The notes: a model not told the origin generated them from the sequence alone. Counted from the first letter of the stretch, positions 1 to 54,464 are shown. The stretch: DNA of 64,000 nucleotides from a virus (IMGVR_UViG_3300021961_007606:1-64000), one strand, 5' to 3'. Numbers and translations are program-made.

Positions 1-93
1 AGTTTTTGTGCTATACTTTTTAGCAGCTTCTTTAGCCTGCATTTCAGAGGCTATCTCTTCTTTTATTATTTGTTTTAAATCTGATTTTTTCAT
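1..93 (-). CDS. 5' part of a leader-bearing small gene (runs off the window)
   Basis: Only the first 31 codons lie in the window; the ATG is at 93 and the frame stays open to base 1. The protein starts MKKSDLKQIIKEEI, almost the same leader as the genes at 667-945, 997-1215, 30849-31583 and 40027-40392. In T4-like phages short amphipathic N-terminal leaders of this kind direct internal proteins into the prohead and are clipped by the prohead protease, so I infer a packaged protein. It sits just downstream of a copy of the thyA 3' end (122-160), with a TATTTATA motif at 111-118. Confidence 0.65.
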   Translation of the reverse strand, partial: MKKSDLKQIIKEEIASEMQAKEAAKKYSTKT

Positions 94-121
94 AGTTTAT
101 CCTTTTCTATTATAAATATGA

Positions 122-160
122 TCAATTTGATAACGGTGCTTTAGTTGTTGGGTGTGATTG
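122..160 (-). repeat. thyA 3'-end repeat, copy C
   Basis: Read on the minus strand this encodes QSHPTTKAPLSN followed by TGA, the C-terminus of thymidylate synthase, directly after and in frame with the stop codon of the 161-646 gene. It differs from the true thyA end (1242-1280) at 4 of 39 positions. It is untranslated unless the TAA at 161-163 is read through. Confidence 0.85.
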
Positions 161-646
161 TTAGTCAAATGTACCTTGTTTTTCTATTTTAAACTTAATT
201 GGAGGTACTGATTTATGATTTGATTGAGTTTTAACTATAACTTCGGTTTCCATAAATCCAAATTTAATAAAAGATTCAAATGTTTCTTTCCAATTAATAT
301 CATCTAATTTAAAATCAGCAGTTATTAAATACAATCCCATTCCTGACATTTCTTCATCTCGCTCATATACTTGAGCGAAGTATTCTTCGGCGGCCCAAGC
401 AATCCCAAAACTAGTTCTATCTATATCAGATTTACTATCTGCTGCTACAGCTCGGTATAATGTTATTGTGTTACCTTTAATATACTTTTGTATAGTTTTA
501 TTAAACTTAATAAATATCTCTTCTAACTTCTTTTTAGTATTAATAGTACTTTTATATGGGGGACGTGTTAAGTTAGCTTTTACTTTTTCAATATCATCCG
601 ATGAGATACTAAAATTCTCTTTCAATAAATCTATTAATCGTATCAT
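161..646 (-). CDS. ADP-ribosyltransferase-like protein
   Basis: A 161-residue protein with the three blocks expected of an R-S-E class ADP-ribosyltransferase: Arg65 in TLYRAV, Ser79 with FGIAW at 80-84, and an E-x-E pair at 133-135 in METEV. Such enzymes move ADP-ribose from NAD to host targets; T4 Alt and ModA are the familiar phage cases. The N-terminus MIRLIDLLKENF is a short amphipathic segment that could act as a packaging leader, so it may be an injected virion protein. It lies between two leader-bearing genes. The family call rests on motifs only; the substrate is unknown. Confidence 0.55.
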   Translation of the reverse strand: MIRLIDLLKENFSISSDDIEKVKANLTRPPYKSTINTKKKLEEIFIKFNKTIQKYIKGNTITLYRAVAADSKSDIDRTSFGIAWAAEEYFAQVYERDEEMSGMGLYLITADFKLDDINWKETFESFIKFGFMETEVIVKTQSNHKSVPPIKFKIEKQGTFD

Positions 647-666
647 ATTAACAAAGGCATTTTACT

Positions 667-945
667 CTATGCAAGTCTATCAGTCATTGCATTAACTAAC
701 TTCAACATAGCCTCCATAGCCTTAGGATCTCTACCCATATTATCTAATAAGGTTAGTATAGCTTGATAGGAGTTTTTGCCACCTTTGATATTTTGTTTAG
801 CGATCTTTAATTGCTTACCATTTGAAAGTGTTAGTACTACGTGATCTGGATTAACAAATTCATCCCAATCAGTTATGGTTAGATTTTCATTTAACGCTTT
901 ACTGATCTCTTCGCGGATGATTTGTTTTAGTTCTGTTGCTTTCAT
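667..945 (-). CDS. Small protein with MKATELKQIIREEI leader
   Basis: A 92-residue protein of unknown function. Residues 1-18 form the amphipathic leader shared by five genes in the window; the remainder is a short soluble domain with no motif I recognise. Its leader DNA is close to that of the 40027-40392 gene. It follows thyA-tail copy B (961-996), with an ATATTTATTAGT stretch before the ATG. I infer an internal virion protein, by analogy with T4 internal proteins. Confidence 0.6.
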   Translation of the reverse strand: MKATELKQIIREEISKALNENLTITDWDEFVNPDHVVLTLSNGKQLKIAKQNIKGGKNSYQAILTLLDNMGRDPKAMEAMLKLVNAMTDRLA

Positions 946-960
946 ACTAATAAATATCGA

Positions 961-996
961 TCAATTCGATAAAGGTGCTTTAATGGTTGGGTGTGA
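961..996 (-). repeat. thyA 3'-end repeat, copy B
   Basis: On the minus strand it reads SHPTIKAPLSN then TGA, in frame after the TAA that ends the 997-1215 gene. That TAA (997-999) sits where the real thyA has a CAA codon. It differs from the thyA end at 4 of 36 positions, one pair silent and the rest giving Ala-to-Thr. Confidence 0.85.
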
Positions 997-1215
997 TTAG
1001 CTTACAAACTCTAATCCATAACTACCACCACCTAAATCGGCAACAATTTTTACTTTCTTACCTGCATACTTACCTGATTTAATAGTAGTGATGTCACCAA
1101 CTTTGAGTGGTTTATTCTTATCAAGTCTATTAAGCAAGCCTGACATCTCACCTTCTTCTTTTAATACTTTAGAGATTTCTTCTTTAATAATTTGACGTAA
1201 TTCTGATTTTTTCAT
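997..1215 (-). CDS. Small leader-bearing protein with a KOW-like segment
   Basis: Starts at the ATG at 1215 (MKKSELRQIIKEEI); a longer reading adds ten residues but crosses the thyA-tail spacer. It is 72 residues long. After the leader, about residues 36-55 read as a KOW-like beta segment (GDITTIKSGKYAGKKVKIV), seen in proteins that bind nucleic acid or ribosomal partners. It follows the true end of thyA by 26 bp. Likely a packaged virion protein; function unknown. Confidence 0.6.
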   Translation of the reverse strand: MKKSELRQIIKEEISKVLKEEGEMSGLLNRLDKNKPLKVGDITTIKSGKYAGKKVKIVADLGGGSYGLEFVS

Positions 1216-1241
1216 ACTATAGGTTTTATAATAAATATGTA

Positions 1242-1280
1242 TCAATTTGATAAAGGTGCTTTAATTGCTGGATGTGATTG
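1242..1280 (-). repeat. thyA 3'-end repeat, copy A (genuine gene end)
   Basis: The last 13 codons of thyA, QSHPAIKAPLSN and stop. Near copies lie at 961-996 and 122-160, each after another gene's stop codon and before a leader-bearing gene. Confidence 0.85.
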
Positions 1281-1916
1281 ATAATCGTTTAAGTAGAAAT
1301 CTTCAAATACTAATTTATCCCAGTTACCACTATCAGGTTGTAGTGATGATGGTAATGTTATGGTTGGCAATTCGTATGGTTCTCTACCAATCTGCTCTTT
1401 TGCTTGTTCAACATGATTCAAATACAAATGTGTATCACCCAAGTTACCAATCAATTCACCAGGAACCATATTAACTTCTTTAGCAATGATTTCTAATAGT
1501 AAGCCATAAGAAGCAATATTGAATGGTAAACCTAAGAATGTATCTACTGAACGTTGATTCCACATTAAAGAGATTGCTCTGGTTGGAATGTTTCTTTCAT
1601 CACATACTCTCATCATATTAGAGGTATTCATTTCCTTACCATCATATCCTGATTTGAGTAGTAATCCGTATCTTTCACTTTCAACTAACTCTCTTGTATA
1701 AACTTGAAATCCATAATGACAAGGTGGAAGTACCATATTTGGTAAATCGTGGACTGCCCAAGCATTCACAACCATACGCCTAGAATCAGGAGTATCTTTT
1801 AATTGTTTAATTAACTCTGAAATTTGGTCAATTCCTTTACTACCAAACTCTTCGTTAAACTCTTTATCTGTTTTTAATTTTTGTAAAAACTCTTCTTTTG
1901 ATAATATCTTATTCAT
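1242..1916 (-). CDS. thyA: Thymidylate synthase, C-terminal half (split ThyA-b)
   Basis: A 224-residue protein holding the catalytic half of ThyA, which methylates dUMP to dTMP with methylene-tetrahydrofolate. Visible are the phosphate-binding Arg pair (46-47), nucleophile Cys66 in LPPCHYGFQ, QRSVDTFLGLPFNIASYG (121-138) and GDTHLYLNH (160-168). It lacks the N-terminal substrate-binding part, which is encoded separately at 3008-3574. Its first 25 residues (EEFLQKLKTDKEF) repeat a segment also present in the N-terminal half ([13 protein letters not shown]). The ATG overlaps the end of the preceding ORF, so translation is probably coupled. Confidence 0.93.
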   Translation of the reverse strand: MNKILSKEEFLQKLKTDKEFNEEFGSKGIDQISELIKQLKDTPDSRRMVVNAWAVHDLPNMVLPPCHYGFQVYTRELVESERYGLLLKSGYDGKEMNTSNMMRVCDERNIPTRAISLMWNQRSVDTFLGLPFNIASYGLLLEIIAKEVNMVPGELIGNLGDTHLYLNHVEQAKEQIGREPYELPTITLPSSLQPDSGNWDKLVFEDFYLNDYQSHPAIKAPLSN

Positions 1917-3007: not shown

Positions 3008-3574
3008 CTATTTAATTTTTTTCAAATAATCTTCATAAAGTTCATCATCTGTTTTACCATTCCAATTACGCCAACCGTACCCATAAATTTTTCCGAGTTC
3101 TCCCCACTTCTTAGCAAACTCATCATCAGTTTTGATTTTGTTGATGAACTCTTCTTGTGAATATGGTCTAAACCCATAAGCAAATGATGGATTCGTAGAA
3201 AAATGTTCATAGTGACCGTCAAATTCTACTAAACAACCATCCATATAACCCGCAATTCTATCTAAACCTCCCTCTACTCCAGATATAGTATGTTTCAAAT
3301 AGTTCTTATACGCATCACCATCCCAAATATGACAATCGTTATCAACTAAAAACTTAATGTTTGTATCTCCTCTTAAAAACCATAACAATTCAGTTACAAT
3401 TTGTTTCCAAGCCATTTTCTTGGTTGTGAGTAAAGGAAACCCATCACTCATTTTATGACGGATCTGTCTTCCGAATACTGAGAGTGTTCCTGTACCTGTA
3501 CGGTCTCCTTTTTGTATTCCGTTGTCTAGGATATCTTGTAGGAGTGATTGGTACCTATAGTCTATTGTGTTCAT
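3008..3574 (-). CDS. thyA: Thymidylate synthase, N-terminal half (split ThyA-a)
   Basis: A 188-residue protein with the N-terminal ThyA region: [47 protein letters not shown] and, near the end, [13 protein letters not shown], the segment that in intact ThyA precedes the GIDQI block. It then adds about 16 unrelated residues and stops. It lacks the catalytic Cys, so it can work only together with the 1242-1916 product. I chose the ATG at 3574 over a TTG at 3598. A TATAAATA box in gene orientation (3582-3589) lies just upstream. Confidence 0.92.
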
Positions 3575-3584
3575 AACTCTATAT

Positions 3585-4154
3585 TTATACTGCTGCAAAT
3601 CTAACTATACATCCTCTATATCCTTCCGGTCTATATTCTTCAGGATTGTTTAATACCTTTTCTAACATATCGCGAATCATTTGTTTATCATCTTCGTATG
3701 TTCTCTTAGGAGCATTAATATCTTGAGGAAACTCAGGTGACCAAGTTAAAGTAATACTTTGTTTTGGTTCAAATGTTTCTGGGTTGTATATAATAGGAGC
3801 AAATACACAACCATCTTTTACTGGTTCATGTAATGATTTTGGATCATATATTTTTGGTGTAAATAATACCTTATAAACATATCCAACCTTTCCTGGGTAT
3901 TTAGGATCGTCGTCTGATATTTTTATACTCTTCGCAACAATTGGTGTTGTTTTATCTTCTGTAAGACCTGATGGTAGGTCCATCCATACGATTCTTTCAA
4001 AGTCAAAATGTTTGATTAGTTCTGCTTCTACTTGAATACGTTGCTCTTCAGTTAGATTGTCAATACCAAATGTATTGTCTAAACTGTGATTGTTTTCTAA
4101 TGGAGCATTTGGAGCACAAATACTCATTAATTTTTCTGCTAGTTTTGTTTTCAT
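3585..4154 (-). CDS. Conserved-looking protein of unknown function
   Basis: A 189-residue soluble protein rich in Pro, Asp and Tyr, without recognised motifs; it has a C-terminal helix ([16 protein letters not shown]) and ends [12 protein letters not shown]. Its ATG overlaps the stop of the upstream 39-codon ORF (ATGA), and it ends 10 bp before thyA-a. The tight placement suggests it is expressed with the dTMP synthesis genes. Confidence 0.7.
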
Positions 4155-4270
4155 AACTTCTCTATTTTAATTTTAACTTTACCTGATGAAACTAACTCAA
4201 TTACTTTTTGAGCTTCATTCCAGTTTTTACAACCGCTTAAATCAATTTTAATTATGTTTTTCTTTTTCAT
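4151..4270 (-). CDS. 39-residue small protein
   Basis: ATG at 4270, TGA at 4151-4153, ending within an ATGA overlap with the next gene. The peptide (MKKKNIIKIDLSGCKNWNEA, then [19 protein letters not shown]) looks like one beta-helix-beta unit with a lysine-rich end. Its start lies inside the 3' end of the 4248-4403 gene. The exact overlaps at both ends are the evidence that it is real. Confidence 0.5.
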   Translation of the reverse strand: MKKKNIIKIDLSGCKNWNEAQKVIELVSSGKVKIKIEKL

Positions 4271-4403
4271 CAATAATCGCTTTAAGTCGTTTAATTTCTT
4301 CAGTAACATCATCACCTAACTCAATTTTAGACATCATTGATAAGTCTATTACTTGACCATACAATAATTCTATTAATGCATCTTTTGCTTCTTCTTTATT
4401 CAT
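4248..4403 (-). CDS. Small helical protein
   Basis: A 51-residue acidic helical protein starting MNKEEAKDALIELLYGQVID and ending in a charged helix (EEIKRLKAIIDEKEKHN). I chose the ATG at 4403, which lies just after the upstream stop at 4408; a longer reading begins within that gene. No function recognised. Confidence 0.6.
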   Translation of the reverse strand: MNKEEAKDALIELLYGQVIDLSMMSKIELGDDVTEEIKRLKAIIDEKEKHN

Positions 4404-4407
4404 AGTT

Positions 4408-4677
4408 TTAAGCATTAAGTAATACTGAAACATAGATTCCTAAATAAGATCCCACTACAGAACCTAAAACATAACCCATCCATTGATGGAATGCTTCTTC
4501 GCTTTTTGCAATCTTTCGTATTACAAAAAAGTTCATAGTTGCTATTGCAAAATCAGAAATAGCAGCTTCATGGTAATCTGCTAATGCTACCGCTCTATAG
4601 TTTACACAAAGCAATCCATACAATACAATTTGTATTACAAACAGTAGTGATGCCTCTTTAAGCTTCTTCATTGTCAT
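4408..4677 (-). CDS. Small membrane protein, two transmembrane segments
   Basis: An 89-residue protein with hydrophobic segments at about 9-27 and 66-87 joined by a polar stretch containing YHEAAISDFA. The second segment is Gly-rich (YVLGSVVGSYLGIYVSVLL). A holin-like or superinfection-related role is possible but not shown. It overlaps its upstream neighbour by 20 bp. Confidence 0.65.
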   Translation of the reverse strand: MTMKKLKEASLLFVIQIVLYGLLCVNYRAVALADYHEAAISDFAIATMNFFVIRKIAKSEEAFHQWMGYVLGSVVGSYLGIYVSVLLNA

Positions 4678-4849
4678 CTTGTATTCCTAGTTTATTATCA
4701 AAACCATTTATTAATTCTTCTTCCAAAGCAGCAGTTAGTTTATCTAAATTTGAAAGTATGTGATTTACTTCTTCCTCACTGAGATCTGATTCTAAAAGCT
4801 GTTGGTATTTATCTATCTCCTCTTGGAGTTGTTGTAACTTATTTGTCAT
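4658..4849 (-). CDS. Small coiled-coil protein
   Basis: A 63-residue acidic protein that is almost entirely alpha-helical with heptad spacing (LQQLQEEIDKYQQLLESDLS, then EEEVNHILSNLDKLTAALEEE). It overlaps genes on both sides. Function unknown; it may oligomerise with neighbouring membrane proteins. Confidence 0.6.
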   Translation of the reverse strand: MTNKLQQLQEEIDKYQQLLESDLSEEEVNHILSNLDKLTAALEEELINGFDNKLGIQDDNEEA

Positions 4850-29190: not shown

Positions 29191-29886
29191 TTATTTGGGT
29201 CGATTTCTGCAGTGTCTTTTACCAGTTAGGAATGGCTTTGGACATGAAGTTCCTTTAACATGGAAGTGACCGCATCTGCCACAGCAAGTGCTAGCTACTT
29301 CATTTACACTACCTTTAAGCAAATATCCAACAAGTCTGCCATCACTCATAAATCTTGATAACAAACTCTCTCCTACTTTAAAAATCTTGTCTGAATCTAT
29401 TGGTTGTATTATCATTATATCGGAACCAGCCATTACACCAAAACATGGACCTAAGTTTTTGTATTCAGGAAAATAGATTACATCAGATCCTGTATGTGTT
29501 GTATAATTTTTAGCTTGCAGCTTTGTAATAAAGCTATCTGCTTTCACTCTTAACTGGGCGGCATCTGGTTTGGTATAGGGTTTTGCATAGCTAAACACTT
29601 TTATTACGCCTTCACTTACACTATTATCACCACAAGTACCACAATCTTGATCAGGAGAGAACATATGGTTATCATACACAGCTCCAATGTAATCAGATGC
29701 TTTAGTAATCTTGGCTTGTACCCAACCTTCTAAATCTTTAGGCTTTTCTTTTTCAAAATGATCAGCTAATTGACTAGCTCTGTGTGCTAATGATCTTAGA
29801 TCGGTAATGGCCATTTCTACTTCATGGTCATCTGTTTGACCAGTCATTTGCTGGTACAAGTCTTCTACTATCTTTTTTAATTTCAT
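29191..29886 (-). CDS. Probable virion protein with two cysteine clusters
   Basis: 231 residues. The N-terminal helical part (KIVEDLYQQM ... EGWVQAKITKASDYIGAVYD, up to about 75) resembles segments I recall from aquatic T4-like phage structural proteins. Cys clusters follow at about 82-85 (CGTCG) and 209-220 (CCGRCGHFHVKGTSC), which may bind zinc. A TATTTATA motif (29891-29898) precedes it. It lies with leader-bearing genes, suggesting a packaged or structural role. Confidence 0.6.
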   Translation of the reverse strand: MKLKKIVEDLYQQMTGQTDDHEVEMAITDLRSLAHRASQLADHFEKEKPKDLEGWVQAKITKASDYIGAVYDNHMFSPDQDCGTCGDNSVSEGVIKVFSYAKPYTKPDAAQLRVKADSFITKLQAKNYTTHTGSDVIYFPEYKNLGPCFGVMAGSDIMIIQPIDSDKIFKVGESLLSRFMSDGRLVGYLLKGSVNEVASTCCGRCGHFHVKGTSCPKPFLTGKRHCRNRPK

Positions 29887-29903: not shown

Positions 29904-30848
29904 TTATTTCTTTAAGTCTTTTATAAACCTCTTGAGGTACTTGTTGTATTCTCGGTTAAAATCAAATCCTGCAGGGTATTCATTAACTTCTACGTAAGGT
30001 ATTATATCATCTACACTATTAACCAAAGGAAAATCCTCTCCTGTACGTTTACTTTCTGCATTAGCTGCTTTATTATAAGCATCTACAATTCCTGCAAAGT
30101 ATGGTTGAGCTTTTTTGATTTTATGTATAAAAAGTTCGTTTGGTTCCATTCTCCATGAATTAACAGAAACAGACCAATCCACATACGCTTCAAACGTCCC
30201 AGCTTTTGCTATTCGTATAGTTTCTTTTTCATCTACACCCCATATTATTTTTAAAAGCAATGGATTGATAATAAAATCTTTGTTTACTTTAGTAGCATAT
30301 ACTACTGCTACGTTATCTGTCCAATGACCTGTTTTACCTTGAAAAGTAAAAGCTTTTTTAGGATTTAGCGTCCATGACTGAGCGTCTCTGATAGGAGAGT
30401 ATTGTAAATTTTTAAAATGAAATACGTCTCTTCCAGCTATTCTCTCTGTAGTATATTTTTTGGTTTTAAATGCACTCTCTAAAGAGTCTTTTTTAATTGA
30501 AGTGCCTCGATAAACAATTTCACCTATTGGAGGTTGTAATAGCATTGGAAATTCTTTTGCTAATTGGTCTAGTAAACCTTTATTCTTTTTGAAGTATTCA
30601 GCGGTTGCATTGTCTGATTGATTTAACCAATCAGTGATTTTGATGTATAAATCATCTTCCCATTTTGTATTAGGTTCTGCTACATCAGCTCCTCTAGGAA
30701 TTTTAGCTCCTTGAACCTTTGCTAAAGAATCTCCGCTGCGACCCGTGGTACCTCCTAAAAAGACATTACCAACCTTTTTTTGTAAATCTGGTGTAAGCTT
30801 TTCTTTAAGCTGTCGTATTTCTTTTAAAACTTGCTCTGGAGATTTCAT
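29904..30848 (-). CDS. ADP-ribosyltransferase-like virion protein
   Basis: 314 residues. The helical N-terminal third is followed by an ART-like core: Arg in IVYRGTSIKK (about 110-119), Ser-Trp-Thr in AQSWTLNPKKAF (about 157-168), and Glu in MEPNELFIHKIK (about 232-243), matching the R-S-E triad. It resembles the catalytic domains of Alt-type toxins injected with phage DNA. Whether it is active needs the full E-x-E, of which only one Glu is clear. Confidence 0.6.
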   Translation of the reverse strand: MKSPEQVLKEIRQLKEKLTPDLQKKVGNVFLGGTTGRSGDSLAKVQGAKIPRGADVAEPNTKWEDDLYIKITDWLNQSDNATAEYFKKNKGLLDQLAKEFPMLLQPPIGEIVYRGTSIKKDSLESAFKTKKYTTERIAGRDVFHFKNLQYSPIRDAQSWTLNPKKAFTFQGKTGHWTDNVAVVYATKVNKDFIINPLLLKIIWGVDEKETIRIAKAGTFEAYVDWSVSVNSWRMEPNELFIHKIKKAQPYFAGIVDAYNKAANAESKRTGEDFPLVNSVDDIIPYVEVNEYPAGFDFNREYNKYLKRFIKDLKK

Positions 30849-31583
30849 TTATGCCTCTGTTCCAAATTCCCATTGGTTACCACCCTTGTGATAAGCATTT
30901 TCTATATTAGGCAACATTCTACCTACTCCTCCAGTAAATTGAAAGTCGTGATAAGCATCAATAAACTCATTTTCATCTTTCAGAGGATTTACAAACTCAA
31001 TAGACAAAGTAGGTCCAGCGTTTATGTTGTTGTATGTTTCTATTTTTTTAACAGGAAAGCCTAATGATTTGAATATTTTTGCTAATGCTGTTACTTTGAA
31101 AGTTTTGATAGGTTTTACTGATCCATAACCTTCTTGCAATCCTTCATGTTTCTTGAGCTCATTGTATAGTTTGTCATACAAACCCTTTATTGTCATAAAA
31201 TCTTTATCGTCAACTACATCAGACAATCTATCCATATATCTTTTAAAGTCTGGAGCTGCCAACAAGCTCAGCATATTTGATGCTGGATTTTCATTGACTT
31301 CTTGTAATCCTTCTACATAAGGACCTAATATGTTCTCAATTTCGTCATCATCAAATCCAAATTGACCAAGAATTTCCATTACATCAGTCCAACTGGTAGA
31401 TTTTTTTATATCTTCCATAGCTGCCAATACAGTGTTTACCTCTTCGTCACCCGTACTTTGAGCAGCCTTTAAATGACCTGCCAATGCTTTTATAGCATTG
31501 ATTTTGGATTTTTTGGATAAAGATTCCTTCAATACTGATTGAATCTCTTCTTTAATGATTTTTACTAGTTGTGATTTTTTCAT
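30849..31583 (-). CDS. Leader-bearing probable internal virion protein
   Basis: 244 residues beginning MKKSQLVKIIKEEIQSVL, the shared leader. The next 150 residues are helical with acidic stretches; the last 90 hold strands (IKTFKVTALAKIFKSLGF). Its end touches the ART-like gene and its start overlaps the metallopeptidase by 4 bp. I infer a prohead-packaged protein cleaved after the leader. Confidence 0.6.
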   Translation of the reverse strand: MKKSQLVKIIKEEIQSVLKESLSKKSKINAIKALAGHLKAAQSTGDEEVNTVLAAMEDIKKSTSWTDVMEILGQFGFDDDEIENILGPYVEGLQEVNENPASNMLSLLAAPDFKRYMDRLSDVVDDKDFMTIKGLYDKLYNELKKHEGLQEGYGSVKPIKTFKVTALAKIFKSLGFPVKKIETYNNINAGPTLSIEFVNPLKDENEFIDAYHDFQFTGGVGRMLPNIENAYHKGGNQWEFGTEA

Positions 31584-31981
31584 TTGTTTCCGTACTTTTT
31601 ATTATCAGTCCAATCTCTAAAAAGCATATTACCTCTCTTGTAGGCATCCTCTTCTAGTTTTCTCATATGAGGATTGTTTTGTGCATACTTAGGATCATTA
31701 CCTTCTCCCATCTTGTCTGGAGTCATTAATCCTGATAGATTTTGGTTGTGATGGATAAGCTCATGAGCATAGCTTCTAAGAATATCTTTCATATGCCTAC
31801 CATGTGTAAAAAGAACTATAACCTTGTCTGTAGGGTCATAGTATCCAGTAGTGTTAAATAAAGTATTTCCAGTCTGAGGTTGCTTGTTTAGCATTACACT
31901 CGGAAATGGATAAACATCAACACCACACTCTTGCATGTATTGAGCAATTTCAGCCAAATGCTTTTTAAAGGACTTGTCCAT
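31580..31981 (-). CDS. Zinc metallopeptidase (HExxH)
   Basis: 133 residues with HELIH at 73-77 in RSYAHELIHHNQ and a downstream LEEDAYKRGN (about 107-116) that can supply the third, Glu ligand (gluzincin type). There is no signal peptide, so a virion-borne or cytoplasmic peptidase is likely; maturation or host-targeting roles are possible. A TATTTATA motif (31986-31993) precedes it. Confidence 0.8.
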   Translation of the reverse strand: MDKSFKKHLAEIAQYMQECGVDVYPFPSVMLNKQPQTGNTLFNTTGYYDPTDKVIVLFTHGRHMKDILRSYAHELIHHNQNLSGLMTPDKMGEGNDPKYAQNNPHMRKLEEDAYKRGNMLFRDWTDNKKYGNK

Positions 31982-36047: not shown

Positions 36048-36608
36048 CTAGATTTTTGCTGCCACAAAAGATTCTGGGGTAAGTTGCTTGTCTATATTAG
36101 GAAAATTCTCTTTTAGTTTATCTTTCCACTTAGACTGACCAAGTAGATAGCTAATAAATTTAGGAGCTTGTTCTTTTGTAAGAGCTGCTTGTAATTCTTG
36201 AGCTGTAGATGATGTTACTGCTTTAAACTTATCATCTTTCATTACTAAAAACAATCCAATTTTTTCTTTAACACGTGGTGATGATAATGTGATTGTTATT
36301 GTAGAATCTGATGCAAGGGCTTTAGCAATCTTAGCTCCTAGCTTTTTAAAAAATCCACCATCTGTTGGCTTTTCTGAGCTCTTTTGTTGATTGTCTATAT
36401 TAACGTTTTCTATCTTGCAATTAAATTGTGCAGATCTTTTACGTAAAGGATCGTACTTTACCCACATATGAAACTCATCTGGTGCAGAAGATGGTTCTTC
36501 ATCCTTTGCATTCTTAGTATTGAGAGATGCTGCAGCAACAGCTCCTATTTGACCTGGCATTGCTTCTTTTACAATATGCTCTGGTAGTAGAGTTTTTAGC
36601 TTTATCAT
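36048..36608 (-). CDS. Protein of unknown function with possible packaging leader
   Basis: 186 residues starting MIKLKTLLPEHIVKEAMPGQ, a short amphipathic leader ending in a site (KEA) that resembles prohead-protease cleavage sites. Then comes a polar region, a predicted alpha/beta core and a C-terminal helix. A TATTTATA motif (36613-36620) sits 5 nt before the ATG. Virion association is inferred. Confidence 0.55.
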   Translation of the reverse strand: MIKLKTLLPEHIVKEAMPGQIGAVAAASLNTKNAKDEEPSSAPDEFHMWVKYDPLRKRSAQFNCKIENVNIDNQQKSSEKPTDGGFFKKLGAKIAKALASDSTITITLSSPRVKEKIGLFLVMKDDKFKAVTSSTAQELQAALTKEQAPKFISYLLGQSKWKDKLKENFPNIDKQLTPESFVAAKI

Positions 36609-36622
36609 TTTATATAAATATA

Positions 36623-40026: not shown

Positions 40027-40392
40027 TTAATTTCCTACAATGTAAACATCATATCCAGTAAACTTGCTAGCCAAAGGCTCTAAAGCATCTTCGACATTAT
40101 TTTTAGTTTCTTCTAAAAGATCCTGATATACTGGTCCATTTGGACGAAATTCAAACTCACAAACACTGTCAGTTACTACGTAATTGATTAGTTTACAGTC
40201 GTTTTGTTCTATAGTTTGTATTACCTCAGCCCATAAAGATGCGTTGTTGCTTTCAGCTTTATTCCAAGAAAAGTAGATAGCTGCTACAAGATTGTTGTTT
40301 TTATGTTTAGCTTGAAAAGCAGGAGCTTTTGCTTCCGTTAATACTTTTTTAATCTCTTCGCGGATTAGCTTTCTAAGTTCTGTTGCTTTCAT
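40027..40392 (-). CDS. Leader-bearing protein of unknown function
   Basis: 121 residues starting MKATELRKLIREEIKKVL, the shared leader, followed by an alpha/beta domain (NNLVAAIYFSWNKAESNNAS, VTDSVCEFEF, YDVYIVGN). A TATTTATA motif (40409-40416) lies upstream and a strong terminator downstream. Inferred to be an internal virion protein although it lies among replication genes. Confidence 0.6.
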   Translation of the reverse strand: MKATELRKLIREEIKKVLTEAKAPAFQAKHKNNNLVAAIYFSWNKAESNNASLWAEVIQTIEQNDCKLINYVVTDSVCEFEFRPNGPVYQDLLEETKNNVEDALEPLASKFTGYDVYIVGN

Positions 40393-52275: not shown

Positions 52276-53316
52276 TCAATCTTCCAAGGCATGGCTGTCT
52301 AATTTATGAGTAATTTCTCTCAGCCACATCTCTACATTTTTAATAGCATTAGTCATCCGGTCTTCAATAAGCATGGAGTGAAATTTAATCTTTGCAAGTT
52401 TATTAACTTGTTGGTCAAGCATATCAATAATTTTCATTTTAGTACTCATATTGATATTGCTCACACTGAGTTGCACTACATCATAATACAATCTAATATC
52501 CGATTCAGCTTGTACAACTTTTTGATAAATCTTGGCTTTGTTTGTTGCAGCTAATTCTTTAGCGTATTCCATGAAACTATCTAAAGTCATTGCTTCTGTT
52601 GTAATCTTAGGAAACTTTTCAATTAAAGTCTTATCACCCACACCGTTTACTCCTGGAATGTTATCACTATCATCTCCAGTCAATGCTCTGTATAAAGCAA
52701 AGTTGCTTGGAGGTATTCCATACGTTTCCAACACATCATCTGTGTAAAACATCTTCTTTTTTGTTGGACTCCAAACGTGAGTTCGGTTATCCACTAGTTG
52801 CATAAAATCCTTATCCGAAGACATGATAAAGACTTGAGAATCTTTATGCAAAAGATAATCATTTGCAATATAAGCTACTACATCATCAGCTTCAGCACCA
52901 TCTACAACAATAGTACTAACTGGCATAATATCCAAGTACTCTGTTAATCTGACAAGTTGCTGTAACTGATTGTCTTGTTTGTCAACTGTAATAGCTCTGT
53001 TTAATCTTATCTTAACTTTTCTGTTTGCTTTGTAATCAGGGTATATTGATCTCCTGCGAGCAGATCCATCTTTGCCATCAAACACCACAACCACTCTTGT
53101 TGGATTGATTGCTTTGATAGCGTGACCTACACTCATTAGAAAACCTGATATGCCTCCCACATGCTCTCCATCTCCATTGAGAACAGGGCTTGCTGCATAA
53201 GCTCGTATAAAAGTGTTGAGGCCATCAACAACTAGAACCCTTGAGTTCTTTGTGACAGCCTCAACATTTTGTCGTAACTTAAGCTCGTTAATTAAAGCTT
53301 GATACTTGTTTACCAT
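52276..53316 (-). CDS. 5'-3' exonuclease (FEN / T4 RNase H-like)
   Basis: 346 residues: VLVVDGLNTFIRAYAAS (about 27-43), VVVFDGKDGSARRRSIYPDY, VDGAEADDVVAYIAND (about 138-153), FIMSSDKDFMQLV and GDDSDNIPGVNGVGDKT (about 211-227, the helix-hairpin-helix), giving the acidic metal ligands of the family. It removes RNA primers and flaps, supplying the activity missing from the PolA at 37729-39951. Confidence 0.93.
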   Translation of the reverse strand: MVNKYQALINELKLRQNVEAVTKNSRVLVVDGLNTFIRAYAASPVLNGDGEHVGGISGFLMSVGHAIKAINPTRVVVVFDGKDGSARRRSIYPDYKANRKVKIRLNRAITVDKQDNQLQQLVRLTEYLDIMPVSTIVVDGAEADDVVAYIANDYLLHKDSQVFIMSSDKDFMQLVDNRTHVWSPTKKKMFYTDDVLETYGIPPSNFALYRALTGDDSDNIPGVNGVGDKTLIEKFPKITTEAMTLDSFMEYAKELAATNKAKIYQKVVQAESDIRLYYDVVQLSVSNINMSTKMKIIDMLDQQVNKLAKIKFHSMLIEDRMTNAIKNVEMWLREITHKLDSHALED

Positions 53317-54464
53317 TAATCTAGTAATTCTCCATCATCTATTGATATTTCATCTGGATTGATCTCGTCTTGTTTACGATACTTCATCACAAATATATCA
53401 CAGATTTTTTTATAACAATAATCTTTAAGGTTTGAATCTTCGGTTAGCATACCTCTCCAATCCTTAGATTGAAAACGTATTTCTTCACCCGTGTCCTCAT
53501 TTACTAATGTATAGTAAGCTCCTGATTGTTTCAAGACACCGTAGTCTTTCATTAAGGATAGCCAACTATTGAAATCATCAATACCTGAGCTAAAGTAAAT
53601 GTCAAAGGTAGCTTTTTTGAAAGGAGGTCCCATACGATTTTTAATTACTTGAGCTTCTGTTTGTACTCCAATAATTTGTTCAGTCTTTCCTGTACCACTC
53701 TTTAGTTTACCTACTCCCTTTAGCCTGATACGACAACTTGCATGAAATCCTAATGCCTTACCACCAGAGGTTGTATATTTGTCACCAAACATTACACCCA
53801 TCTTTTCACGAAGCTGTGATGTACAGATCAACAATACTCTTTGCTTTGCAATGATATTAGTAATCTTACGCATAGCTTTTGACATTAAGATAGCTTTTGA
53901 AGTTGCCCAACCATCCTTATCATAGTCAGCATCTTGTTCTATCTTAGTTGTAGCTGCTGATACTGAATCTAATGCTATTGTTACCAATCTATTTTTAGAA
54001 CTCTTACGAACCGTCTCAATGATATTTTCAACAGCTTCAAAAGCATCTTCAATAGTTTCTAATGGAACATAAAGCATATTTGCAACATCAACTCCTACAG
54101 CTGTTAAGAACTCTTCACTTAAAGCGTTCTCAGTATCAATATACACTGCTAAACCACCCTTCTTCTGAGTATTTGCCAATGAATGTGCTACAATCAAACT
54201 CTTACCGGAAGCTTCCATACCTTGCAACTCAACTATACGACCTACTGGAAATCCTCCATTTGGTCTATTTGATATTGCCAAATCCAACAAAGTAGATCCT
54301 GTTCCAACCCACTCTGTTAAATCTGTTGGTGTTTCTTCTTCTCCACTTAGGAAATGAGCAGCCTTAAAATCCTTAAATTGTTTATTGAGACTATCCGCTA
54401 ACAATGATGCCAGCTCGTCCCGTCCTGATATTTCATCAGGTGTTGTTTTAGCCTGCTTTGCCAT
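53316..54464 (-). CDS. uvsX: RecA/UvsX-like recombinase
   Basis: 382 residues: GFPVGRIVELQGMEASGKSL with Walker A (about 71-90), LAVYIDTENAL, VTIALDSVSAA as Walker B (about 160-170), LICTSQLREKMGVMFGDK, and TTSGGKALGFHAS as the L2-like loop. The order of motifs matches RecA; the divergence and phage context favour a UvsX role in strand exchange and recombination-dependent replication. One-base overlap with the 5' nuclease gene. Confidence 0.93.
   Translation of the reverse strand: MAKQAKTTPDEISGRDELASLLADSLNKQFKDFKAAHFLSGEEETPTDLTEWVGTGSTLLDLAISNRPNGGFPVGRIVELQGMEASGKSLIVAHSLANTQKKGGLAVYIDTENALSEEFLTAVGVDVANMLYVPLETIEDAFEAVENIIETVRKSSKNRLVTIALDSVSAATTKIEQDADYDKDGWATSKAILMSKAMRKITNIIAKQRVLLICTSQLREKMGVMFGDKYTTSGGKALGFHASCRIRLKGVGKLKSGTGKTEQIIGVQTEAQVIKNRMGPPFKKATFDIYFSSGIDDFNSWLSLMKDYGVLKQSGAYYTLVNEDTGEEIRFQSKDWRGMLTEDSNLKDYCYKKICDIFVMKYRKQDEINPDEISIDDGELLD

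Follow-up and report, generated by a model that had tools for sequence, protein, structure and literature searches.

Shuffling of accessory genes between short repeats has been discussed for several phage systems. In the internal-protein loci of T-even phages, reportedly described by Repoila et al. in EMBO J in 1994, variable genes are said to be shuffled via short flanking repeats, and the mobile regulatory cassettes of T4-type phages, reportedly described by Arbiol et al. in Genome Biol Evol in 2010, are said to have repeated joints in hyperplastic regions. The former paper is cited in PMC12373910, the latter in PMC3797505 and PMC4177764. Genomic islands with tRNA-type attachment sites regenerate the 3' end of their target gene.

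The locus analyzed here lies behind thyA in a window of 64,000 nt, the start of a 71.7-kb IMG/VR record (IMGVR_UViG_3300021961_007606) that is itself a fragment. The T-even loci hold small, highly variable genes for packaged proteins with a common short N-terminal leader, and short repeats on both sides are thought to mediate their shuffling. Here, too, short repeats flank variable small genes, with 48 tail-to-tail units across the arrays and reassorted flanks, and a T4-type prohead protease is encoded in 6 of 14 records. However, the T-even repeat is an intergenic element of about 70 bp that contains a promoter and an inverted repeat, whereas the repeat behind thyA is coding DNA, namely the 3' end of a metabolic gene that is itself conserved, and has no stable fold. 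In addition, the exchange would here rebuild the conserved gene, leaderless genes also belong to the cargo, and, among cultured phages, the closest relatives are Immutovirus phages of Flavobacterium rather than T-even phages. The regulatory cassettes of T4-type phages likewise have short repeated joints that permit modular shuffling, but their joints consist of a promoter and a stem-loop, whereas those described here are derived from thyA, lie behind thyA and have no stable fold. As in the genomic islands, what is repeated is the terminal part of a conserved gene, which therefore survives insertion; the islands, however, use an integrase, whereas exchange here apparently proceeds on homology alone. 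No description of repeated thyA tails was found in the literature searched. The principle of shuffling via repeats is known from T-even and T4-type phages, and the use of a coding thyA end as a joint that would be regenerated in each exchange appears to be new.

A first-pass annotation of the window had claimed three copies of the thyA 3' end. All three are present on the minus strand (Table 1), with limits of 961-999 for copy B instead of the 961-996 originally given. Copy A is the genuine gene end, with the DNA sequence CAATCACATCCAGCAATTAAAGCACCTTTATCAAATTGA. The identity, stated as about 90%, was fairly estimated: in pairwise comparisons of the three tails, A and C share 35 of 39 bases, and A-B and B-C share 34 each. 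A tail profile search of the whole window gave 40-46 bits for the three tails and at most 8.2 bits for the next best match, and the number of matches of such quality expected by chance in 128 kb is about 1e-9. The TAA stop codon of cargo 1 sits at the CAA codon of copy B, copy C begins immediately after the TAA stop codon of cargo 3, and, as had been stated, both copies keep the reading frame of thyA with respect to the stop codons of the unrelated genes before them. In other phages, most cargo genes end in another frame inside the tail. Because the window opens the record, the array is truncated at base 1.

Table 1. Features of the thyA locus and the recombinase gene of the window.
Feature	Position	Strand	Remarks
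Cargo 4, leader gene	93 to 1	minus	leader MKKSDLKQIIKEEIASEMQAKEAAKKYSTKT..; start MKKSDLKQIIKEEI; runs off the contig end
Spacer C	94-121	minus	AT-rich, with ATATTTATAATAG; identical in contig L131
Orphan thyA tail, copy C	122-160	minus	35/39 vs copy A; 40.0 bits
Cargo 3, 161 aa	161-646	minus	leader MIRLIDLLKE; without a tail in front
Cargo 2, 92 aa	667-945	minus	leader MKATELKQIIREEISKALNE; start MKATELKQIIREEI
Spacer B	946-960	minus	AT-rich, with ATATTTATTAGT; ends at ATG
Orphan thyA tail, copy B	961-999	minus	34/39 vs copy A; 42.9 bits
Cargo 1, 72 aa	997-1215	minus	leader MKKSELRQIIKEEISKVLKE; start MKKSELRQIIKEEI
Spacer A	1216-1241	minus	AT-rich, with ATATTTATTATAA
thyA 3' end, copy A	1242-1280	minus	genuine gene end, CAA..TGA; protein ..DYQSHPAIKAPLSN, then stop
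thyA, C-terminal part of split gene	1242-1916	minus
114-aa ORF between the thyA parts	1909-2253
HNH-type endonuclease-like ORF between the thyA parts	2258-2950	minus	weak matches to PF01844 and I-TevI_DNA-bd, below curated cut-offs
thyA, N-terminal part	3008-3598	minus	listed ORF starts with TTG; later ATG possible
RecA/UvsX-type recombinase	53316-54464	minus	PF00154, E=7e-57; candidate engine of homologous exchange

Copies B and C are separated by two genes, cargo 2 and cargo 3, and CGATATTTATTAGTATG of spacer B is also found behind thyA of contig L024. Protein searches revealed one weak relative of cargo 2 and none of cargo 3, which also had no match in Pfam or PHROGs. The predicted structures of two cargo proteins, cargo 3 included, were unusable (pLDDT 39 and 43), so that a possible relationship of cargo 3 to ADP-ribosyltransferases stands on its R, S and ExE residues, which recall these enzymes when judged by eye. 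Elsewhere in the window, the ORF at 29904-30848 has a YRG/SWT/E pattern that, by eye, is also suggestive of an ADP-ribosyltransferase, and similar N-terminal leaders occur without thyA tails at 30849-31583, 40027-40392, 36048-36608, 29191-29886 and 31580-31981. The motif TATTTATA is present 16 times on the coding strand of the window and twice on the other (e.g., at 36621, 31994, 29899, 1238, 957 and 119). It overlaps ATATTTAT, which often lies 4-18 nt ahead of a start codon, too near for an ordinary leader; on the opposite strand the motif reads as the T4 late promoter TATAAATA.

The thyA gene of the window is split, and the start of its C-terminal part resembles a segment of the N-terminal part (1857-1901 versus 3116-3160). 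An Rfam search of the split gene revealed no intron; one sub-threshold match to an S15 leader was disregarded. By analogy with nrdA of phage Aeh1, the gene is possibly one that has been split by an endonuclease.

The first-pass annotation had proposed that thyA tails followed by different cargo should be sought in related phages. We retrieved the 80 best relatives using the C-terminal part of thyA, and a DNA-pattern scan together with a profile built from the tails revealed 209 tails in the fetched contigs. Tails that are not at a genuine thyA end were termed orphans, and the assignment was made by homology of the upstream reading frame. After a few cut or misregistered cases had been dropped (e.g., the match in L046, a genuine thyA end out of register), about 63 orphans remained in about 41 related viral contigs, numbers that are no measure of prevalence because the sample was picked by tail sequence. 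Three tails with extra thyA sequence beyond the tail (L196 at 6865, L090 at 3531 and L152 at 7782) could be older thyA remnants. Reversed sequences yielded no match at or above the 12-bit cut-off in the profile search, and the reversed pattern had 0 matches in 30 whole records. All 36 orphans with a visible thyA end are located downstream of thyA on the same strand within 2.4 kb; for 35 of them the median distance is 418 nt and the maximum 2,384 nt, while the 36th, in L063, lies behind a thyA gene too divergent for the profile. The remaining orphans are in loci or contigs without a visible thyA end. Thus, related phages do carry thyA tails ahead of differing cargo, with filled and empty sites and with reassorted flanks.

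Three further observations concern single contigs. At 2615-2690 of L106 two thyA tails directly adjoin each other with no cargo between them, an arrangement that loss of a unit would produce. Behind the last tail of the array of L090, a run of tRNA-like sequences is present (3873-4700). L204 has a thyA tail on a 254-kb contig of a Bacteroidetes MAG (GTDB), which may be a phage contig that was grouped with the genome of its host.

The window contig ends inside its array, which would be compatible with an assembly chimera. However, the same cassettes are found in independent contigs from many metagenomes, the number of orphans in about 41 of them being given above, complete genomes of cultured phages contain orphan tails, albeit shorter ones, and the chance expectation is vanishingly small. 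We therefore regard chimeras or chance as practically negligible explanations of the phenomenon. Neither of the two refutations named in the first-pass annotation, lack of the tails in relatives or an assembly artefact, was borne out.

To localize the copied segment, the last 600 nt of thyA were scanned in 39-nt windows for copies within 3 kb behind the gene in the same genome. The number of copies is 0 for all windows up to about -105 and, nearer to the gene end, rises via 1, 1, 1, 2 and 9 to 17 for the final 39 nt. Copying is restricted to the last ~50 nt of thyA. The mean pairwise DNA identity was determined among 75 thyA genes, which were picked by protein similarity and not by tail sequence. 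From -150 to -61 it amounts to 0.30-0.38, a low value to which length variation contributes; it is 0.53-0.57 from -60 to -43, 0.69-0.89 from -42 to +2, and 0.33 right after the stop codon. These steps mark the tail as a sharply bounded island of shared DNA.

The orphans differ from the consensus at 28, 20 and 70 first, second and third codon positions of the eight core codons, respectively (118 differences in total; third-position bias p=7e-9). The same third-position pattern is observed in genuine thyA genes, and the differences include serine codon exchanges from TCA to AGT. Variation of this thyA codon type, which is not expected for a non-coding functional motif, shows at the level of codon usage that the orphan tails derive from thyA. 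They differ from the thyA tail of their own genome at 3.5 positions and from those of others at 4.3, a slight effect; homogenization within genomes is therefore weak, consistent with import from other phages.

These results bear on the view that the tail plus spacer is a promoter, ribosome-loading site or processing site for accessory genes and that thyA just overlaps such an element. ATATTTAT is indeed found near the start codon behind many tails, TATTTATA has the strand bias of 16 to 2 described above, and ATTTAT is found in the 40 nt ahead of 17/25 and 25/44 leader genes, compared to 351/2110 background ORFs. However, ATATTTAT also precedes other genes of the window that have no tails, many orphans have a different spacer (AAAAAATATAAAATTATGG), the orphans vary by thyA codon rules up to the change of TCA to AGT, and the RNA of the tails has no stable fold (-0.1 to -4.5 kcal/mol). 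A regulatory element as the origin of the repeats is thus rather improbable.

The joints between cargo and tails are variable. Among the 63 orphans, 35 have an upstream gene that apparently runs into the tail and stops inside it (..ITPNN, then stop), 10 have an upstream stop codon that overlaps the start of the tail, 10 follow a gene that ends at most 12 nt before the tail, and five are read through to the thyA stop (..PLSN, then stop); three could not be assigned. The left boundary of the tail coincides with the left edge of the island in 43 of the 63 orphans, whereas nine are shorter and eight longer. The variable joints favor occasional illegitimate capture over the action of a site-specific enzyme.

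An integron-like or integrase-driven cassette system, in which the thyA end would serve for attachment, with the orphans in the role of attC- or att-like sites, fits the geometry of the arrays: one or a few ORFs alternate with a short repeat in one direction, and a conserved gene carries the first site at its end. Clusters of attC sites are known from phages (PMC9892861). The arrays share with integron cassettes and such clusters the tandem units of a gene and a short repeat in one direction. However, integrons have an attC palindrome and an integrase. The tails form no hairpin, and a lone ACCCAAC alone resembles a core half-site; their left boundary varies; a tyrosine recombinase (PF00589) was found in 2 of the 30 records, with none in the isolates or in the window record, and 28 records were without one. 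The integron and integrase readings, to which we give hardly any weight, were rejected because the hairpin, boundary and recombinase tests all speak against them.

To follow the exchange of units, the flanks of all tails were compared, over 200 nt on the upstream and 250 nt on the downstream side. The upstream gene alone is shared in 44 orphan-orphan pairs, with identities of up to 99.5-100% (e.g., L125, L175 and L196), and the downstream side alone in 95 pairs (21 orphan-orphan and 74 orphan-thyA pairs), some of these downstream matches spanning spacer and leader only. Between contigs, no orphan pair shares both flanks; the lone pair that does is the doubled tail inside L106. When at least 95 nt of cargo body were required, the downstream genes of 11 orphans were found directly behind thyA in another contig.

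Repeats, reassorted flanks, and filled and empty sites are thus directly observed. L165 has the order thyA-tail-[MIRLKDLI gene]-tail-MIHKLV and L091 the order thyA-tail-MIHKLV, so that a unit of 687 nt is present in one and absent from the other, and the joint of L091 mixes the TCG of the L165 thyA tail with the TGATC of the L165 orphan. L105 and L127 differ by the same kind of present or absent unit. In the window itself, copy C was compared with the genuine thyA end of L131: there are four differences in the tail and none in the next 121 nt, while the left sides are unrelated. Cargo 4 matches the L131 gene that is located directly behind thyA, whereas the identity is 73-83% in other parts common to both loci, including thyA.

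Two cultured Flavobacterium phages, immuto_2-6A and immuto_3-5A, come from one host and one mesocosm and are near-identical over most of the 49 kb compared. Their gene content resembles that of the window (queuosine genes, a family-A polymerase, GroES/EL and glycosyltransferases). The two phages have differing cargo behind thyA, each with a partial thyA tail; the cargo gene of 3-5A (MNRIHIKFIKWISNKFGYK..) is also present in L106 and L170, and its 3' part in L181. This cargo difference falls within a patch of about 8 kb in which the two genomes diverge, so that the breakpoints do not coincide exactly with the tails; the pair therefore shows live variation but no exact breakpoints. Upstream of thyA, the immuto phages have repeats of 51-54 nt (L205 2867-2920, 3344-3396, 3637-3687 and 3981-4031), which are perhaps a second set of shuffling joints.

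We propose that thyA is followed by an open mosaic array of accessory cassettes, which are linked by copies of the thyA 3' end, and that homologous recombination within the island shuffles the cassettes and rebuilds the ThyA C-terminus each time; we assign this reading a probability of about 0.72. The last ~39-42 nt encode the near-invariant C-terminus QSHPxIKAPLSN plus stop and form a strongly conserved island that phages share although the rest of their DNA has diverged; to its left the sequence is divergent, and to its right lies variable cargo. During co-infection, RecA/UvsX-type recombination or strand switching would link thyA from one genome with cargo from a different one. Since the shared piece is the gene end including the stop codon, a tail-by-tail exchange would rebuild an intact thyA, and selection on thyA would be the reason for the site. 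Exchange with a tail behind a cargo gene would insert, delete or swap whole tail-to-tail units and leave orphans at the joints, and new cargo would be acquired by fusion of a foreign gene to a thyA tail, at a point that varies but preserves or provides the stop codon of that gene. The first-pass suggestion of a recombination cassette agrees with this in that the tails would permit swapping of cargo next to thyA; the unit, however, does not always consist of tail, spacer and leader.

Genes of the RecA family were found in 13 of the 30 records, many of which are fragments, and in the window. The presence of RecA, together with the lack of a tyrosine recombinase in 28 of 30 records, the lack of a fold and the variable boundaries, favors homologous exchange with selection keeping thyA whole; we infer this mechanism from the comparison of genomes. 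A homology of 35-40 bp is, however, short for RecA-type recombination, the breakpoints in the immuto pair do not exactly match the tails, and a role of the tail and its AT-rich spacer in expression is also conceivable.

The most serious competitor is an array built by homing endonucleases, which would be encoded within or next to thyA and would cut near the thyA end of foreign genomes; repair would copy the endonuclease together with flanking cargo and would terminate in the homologous tail, and the orphans would be scars. Homing of the T4 td intron employs UvsX and co-converts flanking sequence (PMC2988022), and it likewise is a thyA-centred exchange via phage recombination. In L134, a NUMOD3-bearing endonuclease gene lies between two tails, and in L107 a fragment resembling the I-TevI DNA-binding domain is fused in frame to a thyA tail. 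An HNH-like ORF is present inside thyA of the window, a GIY-YIG gene lies just upstream of the thyA C part in L009, and interrupted thyA genes are somewhat more common with orphans (5/20 versus 10/108, p=0.06). However, the td exchange occurs at the intron site, whereas here the repeats are at the gene end and most arrays have no endonuclease. Indeed, 15 of the 20 array-bearing thyA genes are uninterrupted, GIY-YIG matches were found in 7 of 30 records, neither immuto phage among them, and most cassettes are without an endonuclease, with endonuclease-type cargo in two arrays only (L134 and L107). The earlier suggestion of co-conversion during homing therefore does not generalize, given these two arrays, mostly uninterrupted thyA genes and a weak association, and we consider homing as the general cause unlikely, though endonucleases may stimulate the exchange.

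Two kinds of cargo are shuffled. Leader genes start with MKKSELxQIIREEIxKVLNE or MIRLxDLLKE, and their leaders end with (L/I)xE; all window cargo is of this kind, so that the claim of a leader gene after each tail holds for the three window copies, but in other phages about half of the cargo is leaderless. The second kind comprises short leaderless MEN.. genes with a different spacer. Few cargo proteins match Pfam or PHROGs. T4-type prohead proteases cleave head proteins after glutamate (PMC5694885), and internal proteins of T4 block host restriction (PMC3012670, PMC12373910). The records with Peptidase_S77 are both immuto isolates (E down to 7e-36) and four large array-bearing contigs; it was not found in the 71.7-kb window record, a fragment, and the prohead protease S78 was absent from the records searched. 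Leaders ending with (L/I)xE, a protease that cuts after glutamate and the S77 gene make packaging and injection a reasonable inference; by analogy with the internal proteins of T4, leader-bearing cargo is probably packed into the head and injected.

A broader and more tentative view, which we hold to be possible but on balance doubtful, is that the thyA-anchored system is widespread in phages related to those of Flavobacterium, with the thyA 3' end as a universal docking site. There, phages that are only distantly related would actively trade arrays of injected effectors and small early genes, perhaps with stimulation by homing endonucleases that cut near the thyA end, and the system would be an integrase-free counterpart of integrons. 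The locus suggests a testable rule, namely that an accessory region stays plastic without harming its neighbor when its joint is formed by the conserved end of a gene whose integrity has to be kept. The thyA tails provide a search handle for catalogues of unknown proteins, possibly with counter-defence functions or injected, and gene gain and loss in phages can be tracked cassette by cassette. A model is at hand in the near-identical Flavobacterium phages that share one host and differ in the cargo directly behind thyA.
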